Both the position numbers and the translations under genes were made by a program. Positions 27,202 to 42,042 of a stretch of DNA of 43,688 bases are shown piece by piece. Numbering within the stretch: position 1 is the stretch's first letter; each line of letters begins with the position of its first letter. Source of the stretch: a virus. The stretch spans positions 1 through 43,688 of IMG/VR virus record IMGVR_UViG_3300020442_001756. One strand, written 5' to 3'. The notes under the pieces were generated by a model. That model saw only the letters and a list, made by a program, of their open reading frames with translations, did not search any database and had not been told where the DNA came from.

Positions 27202-27690
27202 TCAACTGGTTGGATATACTCCTCCTAGACTCACCCTCCACCCATCAATGGGTGCACATCCTCGGTGATATATGTTTGATTGAAATATCACCATCCTACC
27301 TAGTTTCCAGTCTACAGTATCACCATTTTTGAATTCTGTTGCTCCACTGTTACCATGTCCCATGTAAATGATTGACATATAATTATCACTATCTGCATCA
27401 GTGTGATATATGCCATGTTGCTCAGGTAGTTGAGCATTAAGCAGCAAACGATGGCAATGACCTAAACTATTGGGTAGGATATCATTAAACACACAATTAT
27501 TGAAATGGTCCACAAATGACCACGGTTTAATATCAATAAATTGATTATTCTCCATTAACATACTACCAAAGAATCGTGCTTTACTGAAATCACCATAAGG
27601 TGAGTTGTTATACCTAACAGGCATAAACTCCAATTCATTTGATACTTGTTTCACCATCCAGTCAGGAAAATAGTTATCAATAACTCTCAT
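27202..27690 (-). CDS. 2OG-Fe(II) oxygenase (HxD...H), paralogue B
   Basis: 162 residues with a canonical facial triad: H96-T-D98 (IYHTDADSDNYMSIIYM), H142 (YHRGCAP) and R152 for 2-oxoglutarate. The core resembles small prolyl-hydroxylase-like phage oxygenases. ATG 27690 overlaps the upstream TGA (ATGA), supporting this start over one four codons upstream. It is a tandem paralogue of the next upstream gene: both share VIDxYF, GHGNSG and YHRG/IHRG motifs. Substrate unknown. Confidence 0.82.
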   Translation of the reverse strand: MRVIDNYFPDWMVKQVSNELEFMPVRYNNSPYGDFSKARFFGSMLMENNQFIDIKPWSFVDHFNNCVFNDILPNSLGHCHRLLLNAQLPEQHGIYHTDADSDNYMSIIYMGHGNSGATEFKNGDTVDWKLGRMVIFQSNIYHRGCAPIDGWRVSLGGVYPTS

Positions 27691-28196
27691 GAGAATACAC
27701 ATCCTAAACTAACTCTATATCCACTGTTAGGTGCATCACCTCGATGGATTTTATTAGAGTCAAACATAACAATTCTACCCTCTTTGAATGGTATTTCTTC
27801 ATCACCTACCCACGTGGATCCACTGTTACCATGTGCCATATAAATGACTGTTATCTTCTCATTTGGTGCATCGTGGTCAGTGTGGTCCACTCCCTTCAAT
27901 CCACTGACCTGACCATTAACTAGAATACGGTCACATTGTGATACTTTATCTTTTAATATGTCATTGATGATGCTACCACGTAGCAAGTGATTAAACCATG
28001 AGTTTAACTCTTGGGGCACTTTCCATGTTTCATGCTCCATAATAATAGTGCCAAAGAATCTACTACCCTCTTTATATGTTGCTTTCGATGAGTTACTAAA
28101 CGTCACTGGATAGTGCTCATAATATCCACTCACCGCGTCAACTATCCACGGTTTGAAGTATCCATCGATGACAGTATAATTATTACTCGGTAGCAC
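27687..28196 (-). CDS. 2OG-Fe(II) oxygenase (HxD...H), paralogue A
   Basis: 169 residues from GTG 28196. Metal ligands are H105-T-D107 (GVDHTDHDAPNEKITVIYM) and H151 (IHRGDAP), with R161 as the likely 2OG-binding residue. The N-terminal YTVIDGYFKPWIVD lines up with MRVIDNYFPDWMVK of paralogue B, which argues for a start near here. ATG 28265, preceded by AGGA, would add 23 residues inside the upstream gene and remains possible. A pair from tandem duplication. Confidence 0.8.
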   Translation of the reverse strand: MLPSNNYTVIDGYFKPWIVDAVSGYYEHYPVTFSNSSKATYKEGSRFFGTIIMEHETWKVPQELNSWFNHLLRGSIINDILKDKVSQCDRILVNGQVSGLKGVDHTDHDAPNEKITVIYMAHGNSGSTWVGDEEIPFKEGRIVMFDSNKIHRGDAPNSGYRVSLGCVFS

Positions 28197-28401
28197 TATC
28201 TGATTGAGAATCGATAAGTTTCCTTCTTGCCAATCTTTGCATGTTTCGTGCTTTGTGCAATTCATCGCGTAATTCCTTTGCAGCATTTATTCTCTCAATA
28301 ATACTATCATTGAGGTCATCACCTAAAATCCTATTATTATATTCTTGTAACTTAGCAAGCATTTCTCTTGCCTTTAATTCAGCATCGTCCGCCTGACTCA
28401 T
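28183..28401 (-). CDS. Small coiled-coil protein (72 aa)
   Basis: ATG 28401 gives MSQADDAELKAREMLAKLQE..., a long charged helix (IIERINAAKELRDELHKARNMQRLARRKL). The start is fixed by GAGGT seven bases upstream and an ATGA overlap with the preceding stop. Probably oligomeric. Function unknown. Confidence 0.6.
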   Translation of the reverse strand: MSQADDAELKAREMLAKLQEYNNRILGDDLNDSIIERINAAKELRDELHKARNMQRLARRKLIDSQSDSATE

Positions 28402-28604
28402 TGTGTTACCTCTGTATACTCCCAGTTGGCATCTTCGGGCACATCTACCCAAAACCAAAAATCTGGATTGTCAATAGCACTTAGAAACCATCTATCAGCA
28501 CGTTTGTGCTCAATGTAAACAAGTGCCTTACTATTTAAGTAATTAGCATATGTTTCTCTTGCTTTATCACTCTTCGGTGATACCTTCGCTTTGTTTCTTA
28601 GCAT
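28398..28604 (-). CDS. Small hypothetical protein (68 aa)
   Basis: 68 residues: a basic N-terminus (MLRNKAKVSPKSDKARETYA) and an aromatic acidic C-terminal part (ADRWFLSAIDNPDFWFWVDVPEDANWEY). It overlaps the methyltransferase end by seven bases and so is probably translated with it. It could serve the methyltransferase/nuclease pair, but nothing in the sequence shows this. Confidence 0.55.
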   Translation of the reverse strand: MLRNKAKVSPKSDKARETYANYLNSKALVYIEHKRADRWFLSAIDNPDFWFWVDVPEDANWEYTEVTQ

Positions 28605-29434
28605 AATCGTGTCAGTAGATTGTCTTGATATGGTTTGATACGCTCAATGCACATTTGATGATATGTTTCATCAATCTCAAAACCAATAAAGTTTCTCTTC
28701 TCTTCTAGGCATATTTGAGCAGTTGTGCCACTACCCATGAATGGGTCAATAATTAAATCATCAGGATTAGACCATGTAATAACATGACCACGTGCCAATT
28801 CTTCGGGCATTGTTGCAGGATGTTTGTAAGATGATTTAGATGATTGTCCAAATCCACCACTATTTACAATGCGCCAGATATTAGTCCGAGCACCATATTC
28901 ACGTGTTGCTTTACTCTTCTTACCTGCATCTTCAAGTGTGCCATCCTTCTTACGTGCCTTAGCATTGCCCCATGATGAGATGCCTGCCCACTTATTCTTT
29001 TTATCCATAATGATATTCACTGTCTTAGGTTTACCCTTGGACAATATAAAACAATACTCAAATGCTTGAGAGTATCTCACACTGTGTGGACCACTTGCAA
29101 ATGAGATACCAGTCTTTTCATATATCATTGTGTCATGTAGTCTTAAACCACACTCATCCATAAAATATAATGCTTGTCGAAAACTACTGCCAGTCTCACC
29201 ACCTTTGACAGTAGCATCGCCCACATTCCACATAATAACACCACCCTGCTTCAATACACGAGTGAGTGCCTTTGCTACTTGTTTGAATACATCGAAATCC
29301 CATTTACTTGAATCATTATATGTCCTAAGGTCATCATATGGTGGTGAGGTCACACATAGGTCAACACTCTCTGCATCCATAGTATTCATACCATCGATGC
29401 AATTCATTAAATGAGTGGTATTAATATCGAGCAT
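28598..29434 (-). CDS. Beta-class DNA methyltransferase (N4-cytosine or N6-adenine)
   Basis: 278 residues of the N6_N4_Mtase family. Catalytic motif IV TSPPY is at 29-33 and SAM-binding motif I DPFMGSGTT at 230-238, the beta-class order (IV before I). Serine in SPPY is commonest in N4-cytosine enzymes but also occurs in adenine enzymes. The residues 150-210 insert, rich in Lys and Ser, is the likely target-recognition region. I chose ATG 29434 because the longer GTG start at 29470 would lie within the promoter 29461-29490. It lies downstream of a putative nuclease. Confidence 0.88.
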   Translation of the reverse strand: MLDINTTHLMNCIDGMNTMDAESVDLCVTSPPYDDLRTYNDSSKWDFDVFKQVAKALTRVLKQGGVIMWNVGDATVKGGETGSSFRQALYFMDECGLRLHDTMIYEKTGISFASGPHSVRYSQAFEYCFILSKGKPKTVNIIMDKKNKWAGISSWGNAKARKKDGTLEDAGKKSKATREYGARTNIWRIVNSGGFGQSSKSSYKHPATMPEELARGHVITWSNPDDLIIDPFMGSGTTAQICLEEKRNFIGFEIDETYHQMCIERIKPYQDNLLTRLC

Positions 29435-29460
29435 TAAGCAGCAAAAAAGGGCACGTAGTA

Positions 29461-29490
29461 ATGATACCACATGCCCACATGTCTTGTCAA
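29461..29490 (-). promoter_or_regulatory. Promoter TTGACA-18-TATCAT for methyltransferase
   Basis: The minus strand has a perfect -35 TTGACA (29490-29485) and -10 TATCAT (29466-29461) with an 18-base spacer containing CATGTGGGCATGTGG, a direct repeat of CATGTGG. The start point would be about 20 bases before ATG 29434. Confidence 0.7.
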
Positions 29491-29495
29491 TAGTA

Positions 29496-30098
29496 TTATC
29501 CGAGCAACACTGAAGTTGGTAGTGGTAGGAAGTGAAGTTTCTTAGTTGCTTCCTTCACAATACCATACTGAAGTAGGATGCACTTGTCTTCACCCTTCAT
29601 CAATTCTAGTGTGCTGAAACTATCCTTACGTCCATTGCTTGATTTCCATACATTAGAATCACATAGGTCAGTATCAATAACAACCATGCCAAAGTTATCA
29701 ATCTGATTGTCGTTGAATGTATATTTAATTGTCCATACGATGTTAGTCTTTGCACCACCAAAGTGTGATGTCTTATTACCTGTTGCAAATGATGATTTAG
29801 ACTCACCACCCATCAACTTAAACTCAACAGGTGTGCCTAGAATAATATAATCGTAACCTGCAACCTCTTCACGTCTAGAGTTTTCAAGACCCAACTCTTT
29901 AATGCCTGTTTCAATTACATCGTTGACAATATACTGAAACAACTTAGTGAAGTCAGCAGTATTAAGTTGATTCTTTTGATGTTGTAGAGTCTTGCCACTG
30001 TATGTGCGGTAGTCTTCTTTGATGTAGCGATTGACTTCCTTAACAGTGTAACGAGTGAGTGATTCGAGTGCTTCAGTGACTGTTGTAATGTTGCTCAT
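29496..30098 (-). CDS. Putative PD-(D/E)XK nuclease (restriction-like)
   Basis: 200 residues. A segment at 82-95 (YDYIILGTPVEFKL) gives D83...E92-x-K94, the spacing of the PD-(D/E)XK nuclease core as in PvuII-type enzymes. A GGAKTNIVWTIKYTF strand and a VVIDTDL strand follow, consistent with the alpha-beta-beta-beta-alpha core. The N-terminal 80 residues are helical. It has its own promoter (30125-30153) and is followed by the SPPY methyltransferase, the arrangement of a type II restriction-modification locus. No homologue is known to me, so the nuclease call is a motif-level inference. Confidence 0.5.
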   Translation of the reverse strand: MSNITTVTEALESLTRYTVKEVNRYIKEDYRTYSGKTLQHQKNQLNTADFTKLFQYIVNDVIETGIKELGLENSRREEVAGYDYIILGTPVEFKLMGGESKSSFATGNKTSHFGGAKTNIVWTIKYTFNDNQIDNFGMVVIDTDLCDSNVWKSSNGRKDSFSTLELMKGEDKCILLQYGIVKEATKKLHFLPLPTSVLLG

Positions 30099-30124
30099 GA
30101 TGTTTCTTTGTTGTTGATACTATT

Positions 30125-30153
30125 ATTATACACGTATTTTGCGCCACGGTCAA
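30125..30153 (-). promoter_or_regulatory. Early promoter TTGACC-17-TATAAT with GTGGCGC
   Basis: TTGACC (30153-30148), a GTGGCGC element starting the 17-base spacer, and TATAATAATAGTATCAAC. The leader ACAACAAAGAAACATC leads to ATG 30098 with no Shine-Dalgarno site. It drives the putative nuclease gene. Confidence 0.75.
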
Positions 30154-30167
30154 CGGTGTGTGACAGA

Positions 30168-30497
30168 TTATCTATCGTCCACATGTGGCAGCATCTCATT
30201 TCCAGGATGACAGTTGACTTCACCATGATAATTTCTTTTATCATAAAAGTGTGTGTCTTCAATCTCTAAATCATCCCACATATGTGGATAGACACATAGA
30301 CAACACTTATTCATTGGTTGTCTACTACCTTCGGGATTAGGTTTAGTTGATACACATAGTGTGATATACTCATCACTAATAAATTCAATCGTGCCTGTCA
30401 TTTCACCATACTTTGCAGGCATTCCCACTTCAAGGGATTTGAGGATGTTTTTAATTTCTTTTGGCACTGATTCAGATAAGAATAATGGTGTTGTCAT
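30168..30497 (-). CDS. Conserved hypothetical protein (109 aa)
   Basis: 109 residues. A beta-rich core (GEMTGTIEFISDEYITLCVS, then NKCCLCVYPHMWDDLEI) and a C-terminal KRNYHGEVNCHPGNE. I associate this pattern with an uncharacterised protein frequent in cyanomyoviruses. Cys-Cys-x-Cys and His residues could bind metal. It overlaps the upstream oxygenase by four bases (ATGA). Function unknown. Confidence 0.65.
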   Translation of the reverse strand: MTTPLFLSESVPKEIKNILKSLEVGMPAKYGEMTGTIEFISDEYITLCVSTKPNPEGSRQPMNKCCLCVYPHMWDDLEIEDTHFYDKRNYHGEVNCHPGNEMLPHVDDR

Positions 30498-31111
30498 AAT
30501 CGTAAGTTATCGATATCATTCCCAAATACTCCTTTAATAAAATAATTAAATGCCACTGAGTATCGTGGTAGATTTGTATTACACTTACTCACACTGTGCG
30601 GTAGATGTGATGGAAATAATATAACCATGCCCTCTTCGGGTTGAATACTTACCTCTCTCATATTATAGATGTTTGATTCACTTAAATCAGGATTAACAGT
30701 CTGAGTGATGTAAGTAGGTGACATTGCAGGCACATTAAATCTAAACTCTCCTGATTCGGGTGGTGTCTTAATGTATAGACATCCACTAAACATAGAGTTA
30801 ACGTGTGAGTGCTGAGCAGCAGAATCTCCCTCGCGATGGTAGTTGACCCACGAGGATTGATGTTGAATATAATGCCTTTGTCTAGCAATTCCGAGCACAT
30901 CGTGGACATATCTGTCCATCTCATTGTCAACTATCGCCATAGTTTCAGGCGATGATGTTAACCATTGAGTGTCAAGTGACATACTTCCATTATTAATATA
31001 TTCACTCTCTATGTGCTCAACATCGGTGTTGCTAACGTCACTAATAATAGTTTCAGTCAACTCCACCATGTTAATATAAACAGGTTGAGAAAACAAAGGC
31101 AAAACTTCCAT
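30494..31111 (-). CDS. 2OG-Fe(II) oxygenase-like protein (HxH type)
   Basis: 205 residues of the 2OG-FeII_Oxy_5 pattern: N-terminal LPLFSQPVY, AAQHSHVNSMFSGCLYI with H101-S-H103, then GMVILFPSHLPHSV with H172 and R183 (LPRYSVAFNYF). The first metal segment reads HxH rather than HxD. Substrate unknown. The stop is shared with the next start (ATGA). It lies at the downstream end of the six-gene oxygenase run. Confidence 0.78.
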   Translation of the reverse strand: MEVLPLFSQPVYINMVELTETIISDVSNTDVEHIESEYINNGSMSLDTQWLTSSPETMAIVDNEMDRYVHDVLGIARQRHYIQHQSSWVNYHREGDSAAQHSHVNSMFSGCLYIKTPPESGEFRFNVPAMSPTYITQTVNPDLSESNIYNMREVSIQPEEGMVILFPSHLPHSVSKCNTNLPRYSVAFNYFIKGVFGNDIDNLRL

Positions 31112-31113
31112 AT

Positions 31114-31275
31114 CTATCGCAAATTAAGTTTGTCAGCAATGTCGTGAATGAGAGTTTTTTGCCCTTCGGTTAAGTCACCATGCTTATTATAATTTTCCTT
31201 TTGATAAAGGAAGATCGCTCTTCTTACTAAGTTTTTCTCCTCGCGATTGAGAAGTGCAGACTTGAGTGAGTACAT
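31114..31275 (-). CDS. Small basic helical protein (53 aa)
   Basis: MYSLKSALLNREEKNLVRRA..., ending LIHDIADKLNLR. A GGAGG ribosome site eight bases before ATG 31275 fixes the start; the longer frame from 31338 would overlap the upstream oxygenase. It lies between two oxygenase genes with gaps of 28 and 2 bases. Function unknown. Confidence 0.6.
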   Translation of the reverse strand: MYSLKSALLNREEKNLVRRAIFLYQKENYNKHGDLTEGQKTLIHDIADKLNLR

Positions 31276-31303
31276 TGGTTGGTCCTCCGTGGAAGCGCCA
31301 CTA

Positions 31304-32029
31304 CTATTTAACAATATCGTGCCTCCGAGGTTTGTCAAGGGTCTTCATAATGTTTTTAACTGTTACGGGGTCGAATCCTGCTACACCCGTGTTTTGGATA
31401 GGTGGGACGTTATTAATCTCATGCTCTGTGAATAATGACTGTCTCACATCAGGGTCCATGTATTTGTATGCAAGGATATACCTATTATACATGAATTTTG
31501 GTGTGGGTGTGCGTCCTGTGTGGGGAATACGACCATCAAATATCACCACTCTGCCAGGTCTTGGTGCTACTAGGTGCACTGCGTCTAGATTGTGGTCAAA
31601 GAATACTGTTTCACCACCCCACTCTGGATGCCACACATCATTAAGATATACTAATACAGTTTTGTTGGATTCAACATGATGTGGTGAGTCAACATGAATA
31701 CCAGGTGAATTGCCATGTCTCAATACATTTACATATGATGAGTATAAATGGGCACGAGGGGGCATATTTGGGCAAACTGCTTCCAAATATGTGAGCACAT
31801 CTAAGTATAGACTGTTATCACTACCATCAATGCCTGCATTCTGAAAGAATGTTGGGTCATCAACAGGTGTAAAGTTATAGAATTGATGAGTCCAATACAT
31901 GCCACCCAAATCTACATTAGGTTGGTCAGGTGTTGGTGGTGCATCAGTCCTACTAAACTGATATGGTAGACACACAAATTCCTGAAACAATTCAGGTTTC
32001 ATTAGACGTGTATCAAAAACTTCTATCAT
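31304..32029 (-). CDS. 2OG-Fe(II) oxygenase (HxD...H, prolyl-4-hydroxylase-like)
   Basis: 241 residues with a clear double-stranded beta helix: GIHVDSPHH with H112 and D114, VYLNDVWHPEWGGETVFFD, then PGRVVIFDGRIPHTGR with H170 and R183. This is the P4Hc-type arrangement, typical of hydroxylases acting on protein Pro/Asn/Lys or small amino acids. It overlaps the preceding gene by 17 bases. Its C-terminal 50 residues extend beyond the core. Substrate unknown. Confidence 0.85.
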   Translation of the reverse strand: MIEVFDTRLMKPELFQEFVCLPYQFSRTDAPPTPDQPNVDLGGMYWTHQFYNFTPVDDPTFFQNAGIDGSDNSLYLDVLTYLEAVCPNMPPRAHLYSSYVNVLRHGNSPGIHVDSPHHVESNKTVLVYLNDVWHPEWGGETVFFDHNLDAVHLVAPRPGRVVIFDGRIPHTGRTPTPKFMYNRYILAYKYMDPDVRQSLFTEHEINNVPPIQNTGVAGFDPVTVKNIMKTLDKPRRHDIVK

Positions 32030-32633
32030 TAATCCAATTACCCATGACGTTTAGTGACATAACATATCTATTCTCTATTGATTTACTCTTTTCAGTTTTA
32101 TGTGTCAACCAACCTGGAAAGAATAAAACATCATTAGTCTCTACCTGAATAGGGACATAATCCATTTCTTTATCCCAATAGTAATAGTCTAGAGGTTCTC
32201 CCTTCTTATATGATAGTAGGGGATTTTGCACCAATAGTCTACCACTATTTTCAGGCACTTGCAAGTATGCCGCCACTGCCACAGTCACACCTTGATGGTG
32301 ATGTGATTGTGTGAATGCGTGCTCTGGATGTATATTAATCCATGAATCTGCTAGGTATTTCTCCATGGGTTTACAATTCCATGTTGCCCACACCTCTTCA
32401 ATCTTAGGATACATCCACTCTAAGAATGGTTTTAACTCATCCCATGAGTGTGGTGGGTGTTGTTGATTCATCACCACTGTGGTAACACCACCACTCTCAG
32501 GTGTGCTCAGATTTTCATTATTAATCTTATCCTCTGCCATTTTAAGATACTCATCCACCTTCCATTTGAATGAGTCAAACTTAAAATCATACTTGTCTTT
32601 GAATATAATAGGAAATGGATTAACTGAGCGCAC
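32013..32633 (-). CDS. 2OG-Fe(II) oxygenase-like protein (HHH type)
   Basis: 206 residues from GTG 32633, chosen because AGAGG lies eight bases upstream and because SVNPFPIIF then forms the usual family N-terminus. The first metal segment is QSHHHQGVTVAVAAYL (H111-H113), followed by VLFFPGWLTHKT with H178 and R189. The HxD carboxylate is missing. It overlaps the cupin gene upstream by 14 bases. Confidence 0.75.
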   Translation of the reverse strand: MRSVNPFPIIFKDKYDFKFDSFKWKVDEYLKMAEDKINNENLSTPESGGVTTVVMNQQHPPHSWDELKPFLEWMYPKIEEVWATWNCKPMEKYLADSWINIHPEHAFTQSHHHQGVTVAVAAYLQVPENSGRLLVQNPLLSYKKGEPLDYYYWDKEMDYVPIQVETNDVLFFPGWLTHKTEKSKSIENRYVMSLNVMGNWINDRSF

Positions 32634-33300
32634 GGTTAAACCTCTCTTCACCTTTACAGTGCTCTACATACATTCTGGCAATCATGGGCACACTGAGTGA
32701 TAACCTCTTGCCTTTTGGTTTAGCACAATGATACTGACGTGCAGGGATGTATAACATATCACCTGGTTTTAGCATCACATTAATTGCAACATCCAAATGC
32801 TCTTCATTACTAATCAATAGATTAGTTGTTTGTGGCACCATGTATGATGCTCTATTTTTATATACTGTCCACTCTGTCTCTCCCTCAACTTGAATAATAA
32901 AATTCATTGCAAGGTCTTCGTGTATATTAAATGACCCATGTCCCTTAATACCACAATATACATGCATTGCTGCATGTATTGCTGGAAACTGTCTTTCAAT
33001 CTCGTCTAGTATTTTCTGCTTGCCATCCATGTGCTCAAAATTATTAATGATGAGACCACATCCATCATTAAATGCATCAAAGCAGTCAGTCTTAGATTTA
33101 TGCCTTGGTCCCCATACAAATTGATATTCAGGCACGGGCACCTTCTGTCCATCCCGTAGAAATTCTAGGTCATAAAATTGTGGGTTATTCAGACAATACT
33201 CAACCTCTGCCCACGTTACATATTGCTCTGGGTTTTCAATAGCACCTTCAAAGTGCTGTGGTTTATCATCAAGTACCCAGTTTTTCTCTAAGAACATCAT
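32620..33300 (-). CDS. JmjC/Cupin_4-like oxygenase
   Basis: 226 residues resembling the JmjC-type ribosomal oxygenase family: FNIHEDLAMNFIIQVEG with H127 and E128/D129, then EWTVYKN, LKPGDMLYIPARQYHCA with H191, and RLSLSVPM. Such enzymes hydroxylate Arg or His in ribosomal proteins or act on other proteins. It is shorter than cellular members (which are about 370-400 residues), lacking the C-terminal dimerisation and winged-helix parts. Overlaps with both neighbours (32 and 14 bases) indicate operon coupling. Confidence 0.78.
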   Translation of the reverse strand: MMFLEKNWVLDDKPQHFEGAIENPEQYVTWAEVEYCLNNPQFYDLEFLRDGQKVPVPEYQFVWGPRHKSKTDCFDAFNDGCGLIINNFEHMDGKQKILDEIERQFPAIHAAMHVYCGIKGHGSFNIHEDLAMNFIIQVEGETEWTVYKNRASYMVPQTTNLLISNEEHLDVAINVMLKPGDMLYIPARQYHCAKPKGKRLSLSVPMIARMYVEHCKGEERFNRALS

Positions 33301-33910
33301 GATTAGCAGTGAAATTAAGATTAAGTATCACACGAAATGGGTCACGTGTAGGATTACTAGATGCATGGAATTGATGACCATCAAATACAAATAGTTTATT
33401 TGCTTCAGGTGTTACTCTGTGACACTCTGTGTATTTTTGAGTTTTTGCAAGTCCCCATCTGTCATCGACTGTGCCATAGTTAGGGTCATCGTATTCATTA
33501 AAGAATACAGTATCGCCTGAGCAGTCATGAAGATAGAATAATGCGGCGTAGTGGTCGTCTTCATGGTCAGTGTGTGGTAGGTTTGGAATATCCTTACCAT
33601 TATTTAACTGCAATGCCAATCTAATACGAAAGAATTGGATGTCACCCAACTCATCACATATATTATCTAGCAGTGGTTTGAATAATGGTAGAAAATGAGA
33701 TTCTACACCATCACCATCTAATAGTAAATGAGTAAAACCGACCGTCCTTTTCTCATTTCTAATACCCATTGCTTTATCTACTGCATCAACAGGATATGAT
33801 ATATCTTCAGACAAGAAAAACCACGGGAAACCAGTTTGTCCCGTGGTCAAGTTATACAGTCTAGAGAGATAGTTTTGTCCTATTAGGTTGGTTAGTTGGG
33901 TATATCTCAT
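33269..33910 (-). CDS. 2OG-Fe(II) oxygenase (HxD...H)
   Basis: 213 residues with a complete triad H113-T-D115 (NLPHTDHEDDHYAALFYL), H182 (FDGHQFHASSNPT) and R193 (PFRVILNLNF). The layout is common in cyanophage oxygenases annotated as prolyl-hydroxylase-like. It overlaps the upstream oxygenase by 50 bases, the longest overlap in the run, so the real start may be further in. Substrate unknown. Confidence 0.83.
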   Translation of the reverse strand: MRYTQLTNLIGQNYLSRLYNLTTGQTGFPWFFLSEDISYPVDAVDKAMGIRNEKRTVGFTHLLLDGDGVESHFLPLFKPLLDNICDELGDIQFFRIRLALQLNNGKDIPNLPHTDHEDDHYAALFYLHDCSGDTVFFNEYDDPNYGTVDDRWGLAKTQKYTECHRVTPEANKLFVFDGHQFHASSNPTRDPFRVILNLNFTANHDVLREKLGT

Positions 33911-34526
33911 GATAATAATTACTAAATGCTGTTACATTAAATGATATAGAGATTCTATCACCATCAGATGCACTCTGATTCACACGGTGTGGTAGATGTG
34001 CAGGGAATATAATCAGTTTATCTTCCTCTGGATACATATCATATTCATCAGCAATAACTTCATTCCATCTATCAAAGTTATCACTACATCCCCAAAACTC
34101 ACGTAAGTGTTGCTCTTTAGGGTCACGTTGAAATGTAATATCACCACTACAACAATTAGGTAGTGAGAGATAATATACACCAGACAATACAGCACCAGGA
34201 TGTGTATGGATTACATTATAATCACCACGCTTGTTGATATTAATCCACAAGTTAGTCATCCTTAATGTATACTCTTGAAACCCCATGTCATCAGCAGCAC
34301 CATAACACCATCGCATGATAATATCATACAGTGGTTTGAATGCATTTTGTTTGAGCACTTCGGGTCTAAAGTCCCATGATTGCCACCCACCTAGATTAGA
34401 TGATTTCCTACCGTCTGGGTCTTCTGCCTTAACATGATGGCAAAATTCAATCATCTTATCTCTATCAGTCACCCCACAGTTGTCAATGGTCCAGACAGGT
34501 GTGGGAAACAAATCCTTTCGCTTCAT
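33861..34526 (-). CDS. 2OG-Fe(II) oxygenase-like protein (HxH/HPG type)
   Basis: 221 residues of the 2OG-FeII_Oxy_5 pattern: LFPTPVWTI, YNVIHTHPGAVLSGVYYLSLP with H107 and H109, then KLIIFPAHLPHRV with H180 and R191 (DRISISFNV). The position of the acidic ligand is occupied by His or Gly. It starts with an ATGA overlap with the 128-residue gene. First of the run of oxygenases downstream of the halogenases. Confidence 0.8.
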   Translation of the reverse strand: MKRKDLFPTPVWTIDNCGVTDRDKMIEFCHHVKAEDPDGRKSSNLGGWQSWDFRPEVLKQNAFKPLYDIIMRWCYGAADDMGFQEYTLRMTNLWININKRGDYNVIHTHPGAVLSGVYYLSLPNCCSGDITFQRDPKEQHLREFWGCSDNFDRWNEVIADEYDMYPEEDKLIIFPAHLPHRVNQSASDGDRISISFNVTAFSNYYHEIYPTNQPNRTKLSL

Positions 34527-34909
34527 TCCTCATCAAATACGAATTCTCTGTCAGTTACATTAGGGTCAACATGCTTTTTATACAGTGCAAGTGCTTCGAT
34601 TGCTCCTGATAGTTTGTTGAGTTGGTCTTTCTTCTGCTGCAATTCTTCTAGACTAATCTTAGTGATAGTAGAGGTATAATGCATGTTGTCAAGTGCTTCA
34701 CTCAACTTCTTATACTCTTCTAGAGTATCATGATGTTGCTGCAGGAAATTCATGACCAGTTGGTCAAAGGAAATGAGTCCTTCAATAGGACTGGCATTTT
34801 CAATCTTTTCTGCCTCTGTAGGCACATTGGCACGCTCTACCAAATTAACTTCAGTAACAGTTTGACCAGGACCTGCACCTACGCCAGGATTTTCAACGAT
34901 TTCAGACAT
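34523..34909 (-). CDS. Coiled-coil hypothetical protein (128 aa)
   Basis: 128 residues: a Gly/Pro/Glu-rich flexible N-terminus (ENPGVGAGPGQTVTEV), then two long helices (LVMNFLQQHHDTLEEYKKLS and KISLEELQQKKDQLNKLSGA) and an acidic end. Probably oligomeric. It abuts the 282-residue gene and overlaps the first oxygenase. It could be a scaffold or partner for the enzymes, but that is inference. Confidence 0.6.
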   Translation of the reverse strand: MSEIVENPGVGAGPGQTVTEVNLVERANVPTEAEKIENASPIEGLISFDQLVMNFLQQHHDTLEEYKKLSEALDNMHYTSTITKISLEELQQKKDQLNKLSGAIEALALYKKHVDPNVTDREFVFDEE

Positions 34910-35758
34910 TTAATTAAACCTCTCGATGTTTTTATTTAGTTTGAGAATTTCCTCTTGAGTTTTAATTCTCTCAGATAATGTAGTCGTCTCAGTAAAATTC
35001 TTACGACGATTATACTCCATGATTGCATTGTTATCAAGGTCATGTTGATTTGCATTCTCAATCACAACTTCAATATCTTTGCTCCGTAAGTAATCACGGT
35101 GGACTGGTATCCACTGGACCAGTGGTGTGCCTGCCTTCACAAGATATGCACCCTCTTCTAACTTCTGCCAAAAGAGTTGCACATTAATCTCATAAGAATA
35201 TGATGGGTCAACAATACCATTTGGCACTGTGAATCTATCTTCATCCCAATATGCAATGGGTTGTTGAATGAATACAATATCCTTATGTGCCTGCACACGC
35301 CATGGCAATTCCAGTTTGATTGTGTAATCAAGTACTGGTTTACTTTGGTCCATCAAATGACGCATACCCTCAGTCTGCTCAGGGATGTGTGCCTTAATAT
35401 ATCTATTACCATAGAATACAGTATTAGCACACCACTCAAAGTTAACACCCTCACCATCCATGTTGATAATAAAATCAGCAGGTGCTGGAATAATATAACC
35501 AGAGTCCATGATAGCATGTAATGCTGGGCAAGTTACGGCATGATTCCATAACTCTGGGACTGATTCATCAGGACGCATTGTCCTCTTCCATAGATTTTGT
35601 GCACGTAACCATGGACATCTACGCTCTTCAACTCTCTGCTGTTTGAGTGCATCAGTCCTCCACTTCCTGTGTAGTTTACGTGCAGGAAATATGGGATGTA
35701 GTTGTGCAACTCCCTCATCAAGAGCAGCAAAGCGGATCCACTTCTTTCGCTTAAACAT
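34910..35758 (-). CDS. Unrecognised protein linked to halogenases (282 aa)
   Basis: 282 residues from ATG 35758: a basic N-terminus with Arg-rich helices (KLHRKWRTDALKQQRVEERR), then beta-rich segments including CPALHAIMDSGYIIPAPADF and EGAYLVKAGTPLVQWIPVHR, and a charged helical C-terminus. The core pattern resembles DUF6065-type proteins, a weak resemblance I cannot confirm. No catalytic motif is evident. The start overlaps the halogenase stop by eight bases; an alternative ATG at 35782 is inside the halogenase. It could supply a substrate carrier or reductase function, both unproven. Confidence 0.6.
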   Translation of the reverse strand: MFKRKKWIRFAALDEGVAQLHPIFPARKLHRKWRTDALKQQRVEERRCPWLRAQNLWKRTMRPDESVPELWNHAVTCPALHAIMDSGYIIPAPADFIINMDGEGVNFEWCANTVFYGNRYIKAHIPEQTEGMRHLMDQSKPVLDYTIKLELPWRVQAHKDIVFIQQPIAYWDEDRFTVPNGIVDPSYSYEINVQLFWQKLEEGAYLVKAGTPLVQWIPVHRDYLRSKDIEVVIENANQHDLDNNAIMEYNRRKNFTETTTLSERIKTQEEILKLNKNIERFN

Positions 35759-37349
35759 AGATATTCTTTTTAAGATACTCATAGTGTGTTAGTTGTCTTT
35801 CAGTCCACTCTTCAATACCAACACGGTCACGTTGATATTCATCATGCATGTCACTGACATTGTAGTCACCTTGATGGAATCCTGCTTCTTTCTTTTCATT
35901 AAATGCTGATGGACCAAAGGGTCGATACCCTAAACCAGCAGCAATGTAGATGGTGCCAGCATTCTCATCATGTAGTTTAGCGAATGTATTTTCTGCACTC
36001 TGCATCAAATCCAAAGCACCAGACAACTCCTCACATGTAGGAATTGCTTTGTCGTCTACCATCTTACCATAAGAAATAGATTCTGTCACGTCTCTCCAGT
36101 ATTGATTGTCCTCACGTGATGACAGTGTGTAGTGCAAACTGACGAAGTTTGCCATCGCTTCAATCATATTATTACACTGTCTGTTGAATGAATCTCTATC
36201 AAACTGTGTGGTGATATTATTACGACGCTCCAACACATCCACGAGATACAATACATTCTCATGTGTAGTCATGAGACCAGTTGATTCTAGTGGTTCTACA
36301 AATCCATATGATAGACCAATACCAACTACATTCTTAACCCATGCTTCTTTGTGCTTTCCATGTTTGATATTAATCTTCTTCATTTCAGCATTCTCTGCAC
36401 ATTTCGGGCAAAAACGGGCACTTAGATACTTTCTAAATTCTACCTCTGCCTCACACTCATTGATATAGTCAGAGGAATATACATATCCCGTGCCAATTCT
36501 ATTCCACAACGGGATATTCCACACCCATCCATAATCCATTGCCACACAATCTGTGTATGGCTCCATCTCGTTTTCAATATCTCTGTATTCAATCTTAGTT
36601 GCTAGTGCTGTGTCATTGAATAGTTTATGTTTGAATGGAACAAACTCACTACCCATATGCTGCTCAAGTAACAGTGACTTAAAACCTGTGCAGTCAATGT
36701 ATAAGTCAGTAGTGATAACTCCACCTTCAGTAGTCATGATGGACTCAATATATCCATCAGGTTTTTTAATTACATTCTCAATGTTTGCTTTAATATGCAC
36801 CACACCATTAGGTATACAATGGTGGTCACGTAGATATTGTCCAAACAATTCAGCATCAAAATGATATGACACATCTAGCATAGGATTCCAGTCAGTGCCA
36901 GGAATACTATCAGCATACTTAGTCTTTTCTGCCAACCACGTGGACTTATTACTGAAGCGAGCAAACTCTTCAGGTGGATATAAATCAGGATACTTGAGTG
37001 CTAACTCATAGAATCTGATAGGGTTGTCACAGTATGTGTCATTGATATTAAAATTACCAAAGGGATAATGGAATCTCTCACCTTTACCCTCTCTAAAATT
37101 CTTAAATGCAATCGATGTCTTATAAGTTGCGTTGCAATAAGGCATCCACTCTGCATCTTTATTGTGTAGACCTAGACGAATTAAAAACCTATTGAAGTGT
37201 CCGAGTGTAGACTCACCAACACCAACAGGTTTAACATCAGGACTCTCAATGAGAGCAATCTCCATATCTGGGAAACAATGTGACAACATTGCTGCTGTCA
37301 TCCATCCACTACTACCACCACCTACAATACATACTGATTCAATTTTCAT
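35751..37349 (-). CDS. Flavin-dependent tryptophan-type halogenase, copy 2
   Basis: 532 residues with family hallmarks: FAD-binding GGGSSGWM (10-17), VGVGEST (42-48), candidate catalytic Lys77 (ATYKTSIAF, equivalent to PrnA Lys79), the WxWxIP signature GWVWNIP (274-280) and the active-site GFVEPLESTG with Glu355 (PrnA Glu346). A CPKC pair at 314-317 is not a family feature I know. ATG 37349 is chosen because AGAGGA lies upstream; ATG 37373 lies within the previous gene. The enzyme would use FADH2 from a host reductase and a halide to halogenate an aromatic substrate. The related cyanophage halogenase VirX1 (Syn10) is known to iodinate. Confidence 0.9.
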   Translation of the reverse strand: MKIESVCIVGGGSSGWMTAAMLSHCFPDMEIALIESPDVKPVGVGESTLGHFNRFLIRLGLHNKDAEWMPYCNATYKTSIAFKNFREGKGERFHYPFGNFNINDTYCDNPIRFYELALKYPDLYPPEEFARFSNKSTWLAEKTKYADSIPGTDWNPMLDVSYHFDAELFGQYLRDHHCIPNGVVHIKANIENVIKKPDGYIESIMTTEGGVITTDLYIDCTGFKSLLLEQHMGSEFVPFKHKLFNDTALATKIEYRDIENEMEPYTDCVAMDYGWVWNIPLWNRIGTGYVYSSDYINECEAEVEFRKYLSARFCPKCAENAEMKKINIKHGKHKEAWVKNVVGIGLSYGFVEPLESTGLMTTHENVLYLVDVLERRNNITTQFDRDSFNRQCNNMIEAMANFVSLHYTLSSREDNQYWRDVTESISYGKMVDDKAIPTCEELSGALDLMQSAENTFAKLHDENAGTIYIAAGLGYRPFGPSAFNEKKEAGFHQGDYNVSDMHDEYQRDRVGIEEWTERQLTHYEYLKKNIYV

Positions 37350-38775
37350 AGATGGTCCTCTTATAATACTCATATGGTGATGGTAAACTATCTAGGTCCC
37401 ATTCAGGTATCTCTAGATTGTTAGCAGGGGCATCATCGGGCACACCTCCATGGAATTCTATCTCATTCATAGACACATTGTCAAATGGATTCCACCCATG
37501 TCCTGCCATCACTGCCAGTAGACCATCCAACTGACCGAATGTAATACCATCAATAAATGACGATGATGGTGACATAAACAGTCGCTGACATCTTTCAAGT
37601 AATCCAATCTTAGGATATCTAATGTTACTTACTGCTCTCCAATATGGTGAGTCATTACGTTGTGTCAATGAATAGTGCAGTGCAACAAATGATGAGAATG
37701 TGTCAAATGCATCACCTGCCTCACTATTAAATGTGTCTCTCATATACTGAGTGATATGACTTCTATTACCCATTGCTTTAATAAAAAACAATAGGAATGT
37801 ATGCACTGACAATAGACCATTAGATTCTAATGGCTCAATAAAACCAGAGGATAATCCAATAGATACTACCTTACCATTCCATATCTCTTTCTTACGTCCT
37901 GTCTTATATTCTACCAGTCTGAATCCTTCCATGTCTGTCTTCAGATGCGTTGCAAATTCATGCAATGCTTCTTTCTCAGTCTGATATTTACTGGAGAAAT
38001 TATATCCTGTGCCAACTCTACCCCACGTAGGTACACGCCACACCCATCCAGATGATAGTGCTGTGCAGTCAGTAACAGGCACCATTTCATTCTCAATGTG
38101 CACAGTATATTGCTTACGTGTTACCCATGCCCTGTCATTTGGTAGATAGTCACTGTAATCAATCCACTCACTATCATTAAGCATTGACTTAAATCCTGTG
38201 CAGTCAAAGAATAAGTCATACTCCTCATTTAATATACTCTTATCAACTGTCTCTTGGATATGCTCAACACCCCGTGGTATTGCATAGTTATCCCGTAACC
38301 AATTAGCAAACTTAACTGCATCAAAATGGAATCCAGTATGTTTGTCTAACGGGAAATGCTCATCATTTACGGGTATCTTATTAGCATCAGCACATGCTGC
38401 ACCCAAATAATAATCCTTGGCAAACTTATCGTTGCTCCAATTATATTTCTTGGCATTAAAAAACCACGTGTCAGGTGTTGCAAACCCTCTAGGCAATCCA
38501 AAAGGATATTGCCATGGTGTGTCACCTTGTTTGTGGAAGTTATGAAATCTTACTGATAGTTTGTATGTGGCATCACATGCTGCCATCCACTCTTCATCTT
38601 TTAATCCAAGGAAATATAACCACTGTCTAAAAAACTGTGTTGTTGATTCTCCTACACCCACAGTGGGAATGTTAGGACTCTCAAACAGAGTTACTTTCCA
38701 ATCAGGATATGCCTTAATCAAAGTAGAGGCGGTCATCCATCCAGCGGTGCCACCTCCTACAATACAAATTTTCAT
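37339..38775 (-). CDS. Flavin-dependent tryptophan-type halogenase, copy 1
   Basis: 478 residues: GGGTAGWM (7-14), VGVGEST (39-45), candidate Lys72 (ATYKLSVRF), GWVWRVP (243-249; Val instead of the usual Ile), and GFIEPLESNG with Glu317. All core residues are therefore present. It is 54 residues shorter than copy 2, and the two differ strongly in the substrate region, so they are probably old paralogues with different substrates. Its 3' end overlaps copy 2 by 11 bases and contains that gene's ribosome site. No Shine-Dalgarno site is clear at its own start. Halide and substrate are unknown. Confidence 0.9.
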   Translation of the reverse strand: MKICIVGGGTAGWMTASTLIKAYPDWKVTLFESPNIPTVGVGESTTQFFRQWLYFLGLKDEEWMAACDATYKLSVRFHNFHKQGDTPWQYPFGLPRGFATPDTWFFNAKKYNWSNDKFAKDYYLGAACADANKIPVNDEHFPLDKHTGFHFDAVKFANWLRDNYAIPRGVEHIQETVDKSILNEEYDLFFDCTGFKSMLNDSEWIDYSDYLPNDRAWVTRKQYTVHIENEMVPVTDCTALSSGWVWRVPTWGRVGTGYNFSSKYQTEKEALHEFATHLKTDMEGFRLVEYKTGRKKEIWNGKVVSIGLSSGFIEPLESNGLLSVHTFLLFFIKAMGNRSHITQYMRDTFNSEAGDAFDTFSSFVALHYSLTQRNDSPYWRAVSNIRYPKIGLLERCQRLFMSPSSSFIDGITFGQLDGLLAVMAGHGWNPFDNVSMNEIEFHGGVPDDAPANNLEIPEWDLDSLPSPYEYYKRTIYEN

Positions 38776-38790
38776 AATAAAGTTAATACT

Positions 38791-39219
38791 TTAAGTTGGG
38801 GGTACCCAGTTATCCACCCAAGGATCCCATGCTTTACGTCCTACTAACTGGACTTTTTTGGGGTCCTCTACGAATTCAGGGATAGAGGTCGGTGCAGTTG
38901 TTGATGCTTTAACGTTAGCAACATGGTCTTTCCATGTAGTTGTGCCGTTAAGTTGGTCTCTATACATCATGTCAAGTTGGTCACCCAAGGGACCATATGC
39001 CAATGCACGAGTGACAACTGCAGGGACGCGAGCATCTTCAGTGTCAGAGTGATGCACCACGACACCATTAATCATAACATGCTCATACGTGGCATCGTTG
39101 GGCACTTCGCACCATTTCAGGTCAGCGTCAGCACCTTCATAGACTTCAAATTTGTCTGCTTCATCAACGATATCAGACAACTGTCCAGTATTTGCATTTA
39201 CAAGAGCCCATTTAGCCAT
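38791..39219 (-). CDS. Tail-fibre-assembly-like protein (142 aa)
   Basis: 142 residues. MAKWALVNANTGQLSDIVDE opens with a beta hairpin; the second half has YGPLGDQLDMMYRDQLNGTTTWKDHVANVKAS, a segment I associate with tail-fibre chaperone-like proteins in marine phages. It sits between the adhesins and the halogenases. AAGGAG eleven bases before the ATG and a late promoter (39244) precede it. The assembly role is inferred from family and position. Confidence 0.65.
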   Translation of the reverse strand: MAKWALVNANTGQLSDIVDEADKFEVYEGADADLKWCEVPNDATYEHVMINGVVVHHSDTEDARVPAVVTRALAYGPLGDQLDMMYRDQLNGTTTWKDHVANVKASTTAPTSIPEFVEDPKKVQLVGRKAWDPWVDNWVPPT

Positions 39220-39243: not shown

Positions 39244-39251
39244 TATTTATT
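39244..39251 (-). promoter_or_regulatory. T4-type late promoter (AATAAATA)
   Basis: AATAAATA overlaps the TAA of adhesin copy 3 and lies about 25 bases before the 142-residue gene. The start of the halogenase island transcript may also depend on it. Confidence 0.6.
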
Positions 39252-40053
39252 AACCATAGTATTCATAAACTATGACGACGCCTTCTCGACCTCTAGCGCC
39301 ACGGTTACCCTCACGAGCTCCGTTTCCACCTGCTCCCCACGCTGCGTGAGATTGGTGTCTGTGTGCATAATTTCTTTGGACGTGAGACGATGGTTGTCCA
39401 CCTCCCATATATGACATACCAGTCGAGTGGTTGCCATAAGTATGATAACTTCCATGACCGTTACCACCACCGCCATAGACGTTGAGGTTACCACCACTTC
39501 CATTACCACCGATACCACCTGCGTGCTGTTGCCTACAGTTAGCACCATATCCACCAGATGCTGAGCAATAACCACCGAATGAAGAAGTGTTTCCACTACC
39601 ACCACATCCTGAGTAGTTAGTACCACCGCCTGGATTTCCTACTGTAACACTTTGACTGGTTACGTTAGTTACATCAATAACTCTTTGTGATGTACCACCA
39701 GCACCACCAGATTCAGCGAAACCACTTCCACCTCCTCCTGCACCAGTTACACTAACTTCAATAGTTTTTACATCGCTAGGTCTATTCCATGTGCCATTGC
39801 TGGTCCACACCTGCATTGACCTAAATCCACTGGTAGCAGATAAGTTTGCCCATGACATACTACTGCCATTGGTTGTCAAAAAGTTACCACTGGAAAGCGA
39901 GGGGACATTATAGTTAGACGAGCCAGAGATATTGCCGTTGATGTTAATGTTGTTAACTTTCAACGTGCCAAGTGCCGTGATGCTACCACTGGAAAGATCG
40001 AATCCAGAAATACCAGCAAGGTCTCTAACGTTACCAACTTTTAAGACAGACAT
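39250..40053 (-). CDS. Glycine-rich tail adhesin, copy 3
   Basis: 267 residues. An N-terminal attachment part (1-70) is followed by WTSNGTWNRPS and a glycine-rich body (about 105-250) with GGGGSGF, NPGGGTNYSGCGG, GGIGGNGSGG and GGGGNGHGSY. The body probably forms a polyglycine-II-type layered fold as in the S16 gp38 adhesin, displaying variable loops. The end is AHRHQSHAAWGAGGNG then VVIVYEYYG. The late promoter 40073 and AGAGGG ribosome site precede it. It is close to copies 1 and 2 in the body and diverged in the N-terminus. Confidence 0.85.
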   Translation of the reverse strand: MSVLKVGNVRDLAGISGFDLSSGSITALGTLKVNNININGNISGSSNYNVPSLSSGNFLTTNGSSMSWANLSATSGFRSMQVWTSNGTWNRPSDVKTIEVSVTGAGGGGSGFAESGGAGGTSQRVIDVTNVTSQSVTVGNPGGGTNYSGCGGSGNTSSFGGYCSASGGYGANCRQQHAGGIGGNGSGGNLNVYGGGGNGHGSYHTYGNHSTGMSYMGGGQPSSHVQRNYAHRHQSHAAWGAGGNGAREGNRGARGREGVVIVYEYYG

Positions 40054-40072: not shown

Positions 40073-40080
40073 TATTTATC
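40073..40080 (-). promoter_or_regulatory. T4-type late promoter (GATAAATA)
   Basis: GATAAATA overlaps the TGA of adhesin copy 2, about 20 bases before adhesin copy 3. It repeats the arrangement at 40906 and 39244. Confidence 0.6.
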
Positions 40081-40888
40081 AACCGTAAAACTCTCTTACG
40101 ACGACGACGCCTTCACGTCCTCTAGCACCACGGTTGCCGTGCTGAGCACCATTACCACCAGCACCCCATGCACAATGGGACTGATGTCGATGGGCATAAT
40201 TGGACTGACCATGAGATGATGGTTGAGTACCACCATAGTAACTACCACCAGCAGTGTGATTACCATATGAATAGTGAGACCCGTGACCATTGCCACCGCC
40301 CCCGTATACATTCAGCGATCCTCCAGACCCATTGCCTCCAATACCGCCTGCGTGCTGTTGTCTGCAGTTAGCGCCGTATCCACCAGACGCCGAACAATAT
40401 CCACCGAAGGACGAAGTATTGCCACCGCCACCACAACCAGAGTAATTTGTGCCGCCACCAGGGTTACCAACTGTGACACCAACACTGGAGACGTTAGTAA
40501 CATCGACGACTCTTTCGGATGTGCCACCTGCACCTCCTGATTCTTGGAATCCACTTCCACCTCCACCACCTCCAGTAACAGTAACTAGAATAGATTTAAC
40601 ACCGCTAGGTCTAGACCAAGTGCCATTAGAAGTCCACACTTGCATACTTCTAATACCAGTCGATGCTGATACTTCTGCCCATTGCAACCCACTACCAGTA
40701 GATTGCAGGAATTTACCTGAGTTACCAGTTTGAGGTGGAATTACATAGTTGGACTGACCTTGAATCTGTCCATTAATGACTAAGTTTCCAACGGTGAGTG
40801 TGCCAATCGTAGAGATACCACCACCAGACAGGGAGAATCCATACTGGTCGGTTAAATCTCGGATTGAAGCAACTTTTAGCTTAGACAT
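40079..40888 (-). CDS. Glycine-rich tail adhesin, copy 2
   Basis: 269 residues with the same layout as copies 1 and 3: N-terminal attachment part, GGGGGGSGF start of the body, SGCGG, YCSASGGYGANCRQQ, and a C-terminal AHRHQSHCAWGAGGNGAQHG ending VVREFYG. Differences from the sisters cluster in the GNHTAGGSYYGGTQPSSHGQ loop (residues 210-230) and the last 25 residues, which are the likely receptor-contact tips. Cys in AHRHQSHCAW is unique to this copy. No Shine-Dalgarno site is evident. Confidence 0.85.
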   Translation of the reverse strand: MSKLKVASIRDLTDQYGFSLSGGGISTIGTLTVGNLVINGQIQGQSNYVIPPQTGNSGKFLQSTGSGLQWAEVSASTGIRSMQVWTSNGTWSRPSGVKSILVTVTGGGGGGSGFQESGGAGGTSERVVDVTNVSSVGVTVGNPGGGTNYSGCGGGGNTSSFGGYCSASGGYGANCRQQHAGGIGGNGSGGSLNVYGGGGNGHGSHYSYGNHTAGGSYYGGTQPSSHGQSNYAHRHQSHCAWGAGGNGAQHGNRGARGREGVVVVREFYG

Positions 40889-40905: not shown

Positions 40906-40913
40906 TATTTATC
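40906..40913 (-). promoter_or_regulatory. T4-type late promoter (GATAAATA)
   Basis: GATAAATA overlaps the TAA of adhesin copy 1, about 20 bases before adhesin copy 2. Confidence 0.6.
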
Positions 40914-41718
40914 CGTAGTATTCGTAGACAACGACCACACCTTCACGACCTCGTGCACCTCTGTTACCTTCTCTAGCACCGTTACCACCAGCACCCCATG
41001 CAGCATGAGATTGGTGTCTGTGTGCATAGTTACGCTGCACGTGTGAAGCAGGTTGACCGCCACCGTAGAAAGATTGTCCACAACTATGGTTACCATACGA
41101 GTGATAAGAGCCGTGTCCATTACCTCCACCACCGTAGATATTTAGAGACCCGCCAGACCCATTGCCACCAATGCCTCCAGCATGTTGTTGTCTGCAATTA
41201 GCACCATATCCACCAGATGCTGAGCAATAACTGCCAAAACTTGATGTATTACCTGTGCCACCACATCCTGAATAGTTACTACCACCACCAGGATTACCAA
41301 CTGTGACACCAACGCTAGAAACGTTTGTCACATTAATCTGTCTCCTAGATGTGCCACCAGCACCTCCAGACTCACAGAATCCACTTCCCCCGCCACCAGC
41401 TCCTGTAACTGTAACCATGATAGTCCTGACACCAGATGGTCTATTCCATGTGCCATTACCAGTCCAGACCTGCATTGAGCGAATGCCTGCCGAGATATTT
41501 ACGTCTCCCCATGATAATGAGGACCCATTATTTGTTAAAAATCTTCCGCTGTTACCAGATGGATTTGGAATAATAAATCCAGAGGATCCAGAGATAGTGC
41601 CATCGATAACGATGTCAGTCACAGTCAGGTTGCCATTACAAGTAACACCACTAGAGGAGAAGGTGAAACCCCCAGCATTTTGTAGATCTTTAAGAGCTCC
41701 CAGTTTTAACTGTGCCAT
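40909..41718 (-). CDS. Glycine-rich tail adhesin, copy 1
   Basis: 269 residues. Attachment part 1-75, then VWTGNGTWNRPS (84-95) and the glycine-rich body: GAGGGGSGFCESGGAGG (106-122), SGCGG (C152), YCS (C165), NCRQQHAGG (C175), and HRHQSH (233-238). Conserved Cys and HxH residues could bind metal or form disulfides at the tip. The N-terminal 70 residues differ from copies 2 and 3, which suggests different attachment points or module exchange. AGGA and a CATAAATA late promoter precede the ATG. Confidence 0.85.
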   Translation of the reverse strand: MAQLKLGALKDLQNAGGFTFSSSGVTCNGNLTVTDIVIDGTISGSSGFIIPNPSGNSGRFLTNNGSSLSWGDVNISAGIRSMQVWTGNGTWNRPSGVRTIMVTVTGAGGGGSGFCESGGAGGTSRRQINVTNVSSVGVTVGNPGGGSNYSGCGGTGNTSSFGSYCSASGGYGANCRQQHAGGIGGNGSGGSLNIYGGGGNGHGSYHSYGNHSCGQSFYGGGQPASHVQRNYAHRHQSHAAWGAGGNGAREGNRGARGREGVVVVYEYYG

Positions 41719-41724
41719 TGTTTA

Positions 41725-42042
41725 CTATCCTACTGATTTATTTATGAAGTGTGGATAACAGAGTTTGTAGAAACTCCCACCCTTATTTAGTGAATTCAAA
41801 TGAATGTCATGCCACAGCATTTCCAACATATCTGCAACTGCAGGTGCTGGTGGAGTCTTATGCTTTTCAGCAATTTCATTTTCTTTTCTTATTTGCTCGC
41901 ACATTGCTTCCCACTGTGCACGTGGGGGTGCAGATGCATCATTATCTGGAAAAATAATTTCATCACCATCTTTGATAATGAAATTAACATCAGGTCGCAG
42001 TCTTGAGATAGCGTCTGCTTTCTCAGTATCAGTGAAATTCAT
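41725..42042 (-). CDS. XkdW/tail-assembly-chaperone-like protein (105 aa)
   Basis: 105 residues: LRPDVNFIIKDGDEIIFPDN followed by SAPPRAQWEAMCEQIRKENEIAEKHKT, a beta hairpin plus helix layout like XkdW-type proteins, then a C-terminal LEMLWHDIHLNSLNKGGSFY. It overlaps the fibre gene by four bases (ATGA), as tail-fibre chaperones often do. A folding-helper role for the fibre is inferred. Confidence 0.6.
   Translation of the reverse strand: MNFTDTEKADAISRLRPDVNFIIKDGDEIIFPDNDASAPPRAQWEAMCEQIRKENEIAEKHKTPPAPAVADMLEMLWHDIHLNSLNKGGSFYKLCYPHFINKSVG
41739..41746 (-). promoter_or_regulatory. T4-type late promoter (CATAAATA)
   Basis: CATAAATA lies in the last codons of the 105-residue gene, about 25 bases before adhesin copy 1. 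Confidence 0.55.

Follow-up and report, generated by a model that had tools for sequence, protein, structure and literature searches.

Previously described halogenase loci and the locus studied here

Previous studies have described the closest known systems mainly as single genes. Sullivan 2010 reported prnA and 2-oxoglutarate (2OG)-Fe(II) oxygenase genes in T4-like cyanophages and tabulated genomes with two prnA copies; the accessible portions of that paper listed them gene by gene and proposed neither a linkage to adhesins nor a common substrate. VirX1, the flavin-dependent halogenase (FDH) of cyanophage Syn10, has been studied as a biocatalyst in isolation; the accessible portions of its literature listed no natural pathway for it and did not mention a second halogenase, an oxygenase block or a link to an adhesin (PMC8407142; PMC7948982). 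The S-CREM1 paper attributes protection against antibiotics to prnA and a reprogramming of host metabolism to the 2OG genes (PMC9964418). In the present study, we analysed a locus of the same gene families in the IMG/VR record IMGVR_UViG_3300020442_001756, of which the whole 43,688-nucleotide (nt) stretch is called the window: two halogenases, FDH-A and FDH-B, and eight genes of the Fe(II) oxygenase fold lie behind a group of Gly-rich tail-tip adhesins. The window is a fragment of a T4-like cyanophage; it carries gp6-like and gp25-like baseplate genes, and its nucleotide similarity to cyanophage tail-fibre genes placed it among the cyanomyoviruses.

The whole module, adhesins, halogenases and oxygenases alike, lay on the minus strand, to which the coordinates of its genes refer. 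Its order was a tail-fibre-related protein, three Gly-rich adhesins, a 142-amino-acid (aa) protein, FDH-A, FDH-B, a 290-aa protein and a coiled coil, followed by five overlapping oxygenases, a short open reading frame (ORF), oxygenase 6, a small ORF, a DNA methyltransferase with its partner, and oxygenases 7 and 8. An earlier sequence-only reading knew of no described phage system of this composition; the gene set is not unique to the window, as it also occurs in the deposited genomes of Syn9, Syn10, P-TIM40, S-RIM44, P-RSM6 and S-CREM1. Syn10 shares with the window a tandem FDH pair, the adhesin, phrog_1787, phrog_7084 and JmjC homologs in the same order, and S-CREM1 shares the adhesin, phrog_1787, a single FDH-B, phrog_7084, the coil and nine annotated oxygenase or JmjC genes. 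The component genes and the locus are thus already in public genomes, labelled singly as auxiliary metabolic genes or as 'DNA endonuclease V'. No description as one module, of the adhesin linkage or of virion halogenation was found in the literature searched, from which most subscription papers were missing, those on the Syn9 genome and VirX1 among them.

Linkage of the halogenases to one adhesin family

The same arrangement (adhesin, 142-aa gene, one or two halogenases, variably the 290-aa gene and the coil, and oxygenases including JmjC) was found in P-TIM40, syn9, S-RIM44, P-RSM6, S-WAM1, S-CREM1, Sf-FP1 and S-SZBM1. The possibility that the island is unique to the window was therefore rejected, since eight or more cultured phages, from different lineages, have this order, and its recurrence in many phages argues against a chance assembly. 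The genome position of the module differed among these phages; in S-RIM44 and Sf-FP1 it adjoined the neck genes. A tblastn search with the adhesin gave matches in 14 of 50,697 phage records, and a halogenase was located 1–3 kb away in all 14, which represent about seven lineages and include related, non-independent records. Among about 440 cyanophage records (selected by name) with a related portal as background, any halogenase is rare, being found in only about 54 cyanophage records, so the 14/14 co-occurrence did not reflect the background. Searches with the 142-aa and 290-aa proteins gave 24 and 17 records, of which 20 and 14, respectively, had the gene beside a halogenase. The co-occurrence of the halogenases and oxygenases in relatives, which the sequence-only reading had made its test, was thus borne out and extended to the adhesins.

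A reciprocal test was based on 79 viral contigs retrieved with the adhesin N-terminus alone, 62 of which had at least 3 kb of downstream sequence. The results indicated that a halogenase lay downstream of the adhesin in 62/62. These contigs were diverse, with FDH-B identity giving 30 clusters at 90% and 22 at 70%. FDH-B occurred alone in 31, together with FDH-A in 27 and as a B+B pair in 2, and FDH-A occurred alone in 2. The VirX1 type is therefore the near-constant partner of the adhesin, and FDH-A is optional. Among the contigs with enough sequence, the 290-aa gene was present in 51/57 and JmjC in 37/51, along with 4–7 oxygenase-fold genes.

More distant loci retained related neighbourhoods. 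In a distant halogenase clade (L035, L068, L079 and L086), the FDH/oxygenase block had the opposite orientation and converged on t-A-A-A, the adhesins still being its neighbours. In other loci, such as L048, L072, L075, L085 and the Sf-CH11-like L071, another Gly-rich protein stood ahead of the oxygenase-halogenase group, and in L071 on both sides of it. No phage-like module was found in bacterial genomes among 80 loci. The bacterial loci (L265–L341) included runs of up to five halogenase genes. At several proteobacterial loci, related FDHs stood beside TonB-dependent receptors with SapC, Cupin_8 and DUF6445. These clusters resemble the window in that a large ligand-binding surface protein has at least one FDH and an enzyme of the cupin/JmjC fold as neighbours; unlike it, they are cellular, with an outer-membrane receptor in place of the tail adhesin and SapC in place of phrog_7084 and the coil. 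By analogy, the recurrence of a halogenase next to such a protein may serve as a lead. In S-SSM7 (L097, 4072–13600), a divergent halogenase was located amid NodU-like carbamoyltransferases and heptose and sugar genes, which suggests another role for phage halogenases.

Active-site features of FDH-A and FDH-B

FDH-A (37339–38775; 478 aa) and FDH-B (35751–37373; 540 aa) were both complete, as the sequence-only reading had claimed, and their PF04820 scores were far above the cut-off (E = 6e-90 and 6e-105, respectively). FDH-A contained GGGTAG at the GxGxxG flavin site, WVWRVP (with V for I in WxWxIP) and the TYK lysine; FDH-B contained GGGSSG, WVWNIP and the TYK lysine; and EPLES was present in both. 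Judged by these motifs, the two proteins are predicted to be intact flavin halogenases. The halogenase tree comprised an FDH-A clade, an FDH-B clade and the distant clade described above. The solved structure nearest to FDH-B was VirX1 (PDB 6QGM; E = 8e-147), and FDH-B clustered in the tree with a VirX1-type sequence (syn9 gp42), with which it also shares synteny.

VirX1 has no helical lid such as the one that encloses tryptophan in Thal (PMC7948982), accepts bulky aromatics and prefers halides in the order I>Br>Cl (PMC7948982; PMC8407142). The missing lid, open pocket and iodide preference are properties of VirX1 itself and not of FDH-B. By analogy, an open pocket that accepts large aromatics would favour a protein-bound substrate.

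Oxygenase-fold proteins of the island

All eight Fe(II)-type oxygenase-fold proteins had a plausible metal triad and Arg. Three belonged to PF13759: oxygenase 1 (33861–34526; HTH...H...R; E = 2e-20; solved relatives 3bvc and 2rg4), oxygenase 4 (32013–32651; HHH...H...R) and oxygenase 6 (30494–31111; HSH...H...R; E = 3e-22; TIGR02466 over its cut-off). In these three the first dyad was HTH, HHH or HSH and not HxD, and the family match was clear. The HxD/E...H triad with a distal Arg was found in oxygenase 2 (33269–33910; phrog_274 family, 2OG-Fe(II); HTD...H...R), oxygenase 5 (31304–32029; 2OG-FeII_Oxy_3, E = 1e-10; HVD...H...R), oxygenase 7 (27687–28286) and oxygenase 8 (27202–27702), the last two being phrog_274 proteins with HTD...H...R. 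A ninth, weak PF13759 match was located outside the island at 22771–23430.

Oxygenase 3 (32620–33300) was of the JmjC type with HED...H, and its JmjC_2 domain (PF08007; E = 4e-18) scored 65.7 bits against a cut-off of 22. Its nearest solved relatives were the NO66/MINA protein hydroxylases. Since oxygenase 3 is 226 aa long, against 442–489 aa for NO66/MINA/YcfD, and about 100 residues align, it was not classified as a ribosomal-oxygenase JmjC member; the C-terminal dimerisation and winged-helix domains of those enzymes were absent from it. The comparison predicts that its nearest kin are hydroxylases of protein side chains, although it lacks their full architecture.

The fold matches and metal triads confirmed the predicted series, in which five oxygenase genes overlap, a sixth follows a short ORF and two more lie further down. 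The eight genes did not form one unbroken run, because a methyltransferase and a possible nuclease (28598–30098) intervene between oxygenases 6 and 7. The reported overlaps of 4–50 nt applied wherever neighbouring genes overlapped from FDH-A to oxygenase 6, and oxygenase 7 is detached from the main run. The short ORF (31114–31338) encodes 53 or 74 aa in the ORF list.

In eight cultured cyanophages, 42 of 92 phrog_81/phrog_274 genes were located within 10 kb downstream of an FDH, compared with 4.9 expected. Several of the island oxygenases receive the PHROG-based label 'DNA endonuclease V', for which their sequences gave no backing. A DNA repair reading drawn from this label was rejected, the phrog_274 proteins showing the HxD...H...R triad and weak PF13640 similarity. 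The same PHROG-derived misannotation was present on 2OG-oxygenase-fold proteins in RefSeq cyanophage records (e.g., NC_028663.1, NC_008296.2 and NC_047734.1), where the labels 'minor coat protein' and 'ferrochelatase' probably also sit on proteins of this fold.

Adhesins and small proteins

The adhesin group began with a tail-fibre-related phrog_7459 protein (42039–42938; PHROG E = 7e-108), which is kept upstream of the adhesins in relatives. It was followed by adhesin 3 (40909–41718; PF21722, phrog_863), whose family is the one linked to an FDH in the 62 contigs, adhesin 2 (40079–40888; PHROG match) and adhesin 1 (39250–40053; PF21722, E = 4e-9, and a PHROG match). The Gly-rich domain PF21722 and the position just behind the tail fibre identified them as Gly-rich tail-tip adhesins; a search for T-even gp38-like or other solved phage adhesins gave no PDB sequence match for the window adhesin. 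In the FDH-linked adhesins of the window type, the Gly-rich part was high in His (5.6%) and Tyr (5.0%).

The 142-aa phrog_1787 protein (38791–39219) carried the motif YGxxGEQLDMLYKD and had no Pfam match; it may be a tail-chaperone-like protein. The gene at 34910–35782 had been reported as an unrecognised protein of 282 residues; the gene is present, its product is 290 aa from the first ATG, and it matches phrog_7084. Its AlphaFold model (predicted local distance difference test (pLDDT) 76) gave Foldseek matches to dUTPases that were weak by E value (best 1e-3), with a target-normalised template modelling score of up to 0.62, and a GIVDPSY motif-3-like segment was retained. The model thus predicts a dUTPase-like core. 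The small coiled-coil protein was confirmed at 34523–34909, and a homolog was present in 57/57 adhesin contigs with at least 5 kb downstream.

Late-promoter motifs

The motif NATAAATA is the cyanophage late motif known from S-PM2 and Syn9 (PMC2984593). On the minus strand, its core ATAAATA was found before adhesin 3 (41739–41745), adhesin 2 (40906–40912), adhesin 1 (40073–40079) and the 142-aa gene (39244–39250), in each case 18–25 nt ahead of the gene. The number of ATAAATA matches in the window was not above chance, so only their placement is informative. The motif before the 142-aa gene was the last before the enzyme run: none was found between 39244 and 21462 of the window, hence none inside the run. 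It had the same position in syn9, S-CREM1, Sf-FP1 and several contigs, and most relatives examined had a late motif before the adhesins or the 142-aa gene. The T4 late motif TATAAATA was absent from the window. The motif placement and the overlapping genes suggest readthrough into the enzyme genes from the last promoter of the adhesin group, and hence their late expression; adhesins and enzymes are probably expressed together.

Neighbouring genes

A strong terminator-like hairpin followed by T6 was located at 29449–29476 on the minus strand. The 28598–30098 pair consists of an N6/N4 DNA methyltransferase and a partner gene (phrog_11812), PD-(D/E)XK-like by eye; it also adjoins the module in P-TIM40, syn9 and several contigs and is possibly a phage restriction-modification or genome-marking pair. 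Elsewhere in the window, a single ORF of at least 3898 aa (2–11695) ran open at the contig end, and an NlpC/P60 protein was encoded at 20066–20545.

Proposed role and alternative explanations

We give an even chance to the reading that the module is a late-expressed cassette for tailoring the virion's own tail-tip adhesins by halogenation and hydroxylation. In such a cassette, the three Gly-rich adhesins would be produced late, each from its own late-promoter motif, and the last late promoter of the group would drive both halogenases, oxygenases 1–6 and three further proteins (142-aa chaperone-like, dUTPase-fold and coiled-coil). During adhesin folding, one or both halogenases, with an open pocket of the VirX1 type, would add Br or I to exposed Tyr, Trp and possibly His, and the JmjC/2OG enzymes would hydroxylate other side chains of the Gly-rich loops. 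These modifications might alter receptor binding or tip stability. The lidless VirX1, the JmjC kinship and the His/Tyr-rich adhesin together favour tail-tip modification, each indirectly. The sequence-only reading had named tail fibres, envelope components or a small aromatic molecule as the common target, and the first of these, the tail fibres or adhesins, was the best supported of the three.

Several observations weigh against adhesin tailoring. The adhesin is a putative substrate, proposed from gene linkage and comparison with related enzymes, and the AlphaFold model of the adhesin was unusable (pLDDT 52). The Gly-rich proteins of the more distant FDH loci were poor in Tyr, Trp and His; aromatic enrichment was therefore rejected as a universal signature, being true of the window adhesin type (His, Tyr) and failing in those loci. 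No adhesin was found within the stretch examined around the FDHs of S-H35, S-MbCM6, P-SSM2 and S-PM2. A Gly-rich ORF lay within 6 kb of the halogenase in 31 of 41 FDH loci with flanks of at least 5 kb, whereas in terminase control contigs 13% of positions had one. This excess speaks for the linkage but is to be taken as an upper view, because the loci were picked by similarity to the window. Four control contigs had a Gly-rich ORF, and two of these also carried an FDH. This selection bias does not affect the adhesin-based reciprocal test. Phages without an FDH had similar oxygenase gene totals, and S-SM1 (L342, 10842–18750), which has no halogenase, carried an oxygenase block directly behind a Gly-rich adhesin. 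The proposed pairing of halogenase and oxygenases thus held as a linkage, and a strict dependence of the block on the halogenase was rejected. For the same reasons, what recurs more generally may be a Gly-rich adhesin followed by an oxygenase block, the halogenase being tied to a single adhesin family.

This last pattern also bears on the unlikely explanation that adhesin loci are host-range hot spots of recombination, with the enzymes carried along as passengers and retained for other reasons. Regions downstream of the fibre vary among cyanophages, and the FDH-less phages, S-SM1 included, fit such an account; however, retention in one order in 62/62 contigs and a distant inverted arrangement that keeps its neighbours are hard to explain by passengers. 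It is similarly improbable that the enzymes modify the host surface, changing the receptor or envelope late so that released or superinfecting phages escape trapping, and that they travel with the adhesin because recognition and change must match. The adhesin linkage (14/14 records and 62/62 contigs) would be expected here too, and the carbamoyltransferase and heptose genes around the S-SSM7 FDH and the proteobacterial FDHs adjoining TonB-dependent outer-membrane receptors with SapC and Cupin_8 are consistent with this role. However, halogenases require electron-rich aromatics, and polysaccharide has none; among the module genes, none was recognised as encoding a transferase or as serving transport or export; and the small chaperone-like gene beside the FDH hints at fibre assembly.

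Auxiliary metabolism, with the FDH halogenating free tryptophan as an antibiotic-like protection and the oxygenases drawing down 2OG or repairing DNA, has published proposals behind it: an NtcA/2OG role (PMC3037559), antibiotic protection (PMC2984593; PMC9964418) and DNA repair, as cited in PMC9146016. We consider it very unlikely, as the promoter placement suggests late expression alongside structural genes, the link is to an adhesin type, VirX1 has no lid of the kind that closes over Trp in Thal (PMC7948982), and the drawdown of one metabolite needs no eight divergent oxygenases. Equally doubtful is that the cluster makes a small molecule or short peptide, bearing halogen and hydroxyl groups, that acts on the host or competitors. 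FDHs with oxygenases do resemble natural-product tailoring, and the run contains short ORFs (such as that at 31114–31338), but none of the module genes was recognised as making a scaffold, cyclising a peptide or exporting a product.

Adhesin tailoring can also be stated more widely: a widespread class of marine phages may carry a late cassette that halogenates (Br/I) and multiply hydroxylates their own receptor-binding adhesins, the adhesin being the natural substrate of VirX1. We put this forward tentatively, at somewhat below an even chance. Host metabolism has so far been the explanation both for what VirX1 and other viral halogenases act on in nature and for why cyanophages retain so many oxygenases. 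The strict association of one adhesin type with a halogenase and an oxygenase block offers a concrete answer that is testable in the cultured phages Syn9, Syn10, P-TIM40 and S-CREM1. If true, it would reveal a new layer of virion chemistry and host-range control, and many database labels would be corrected.

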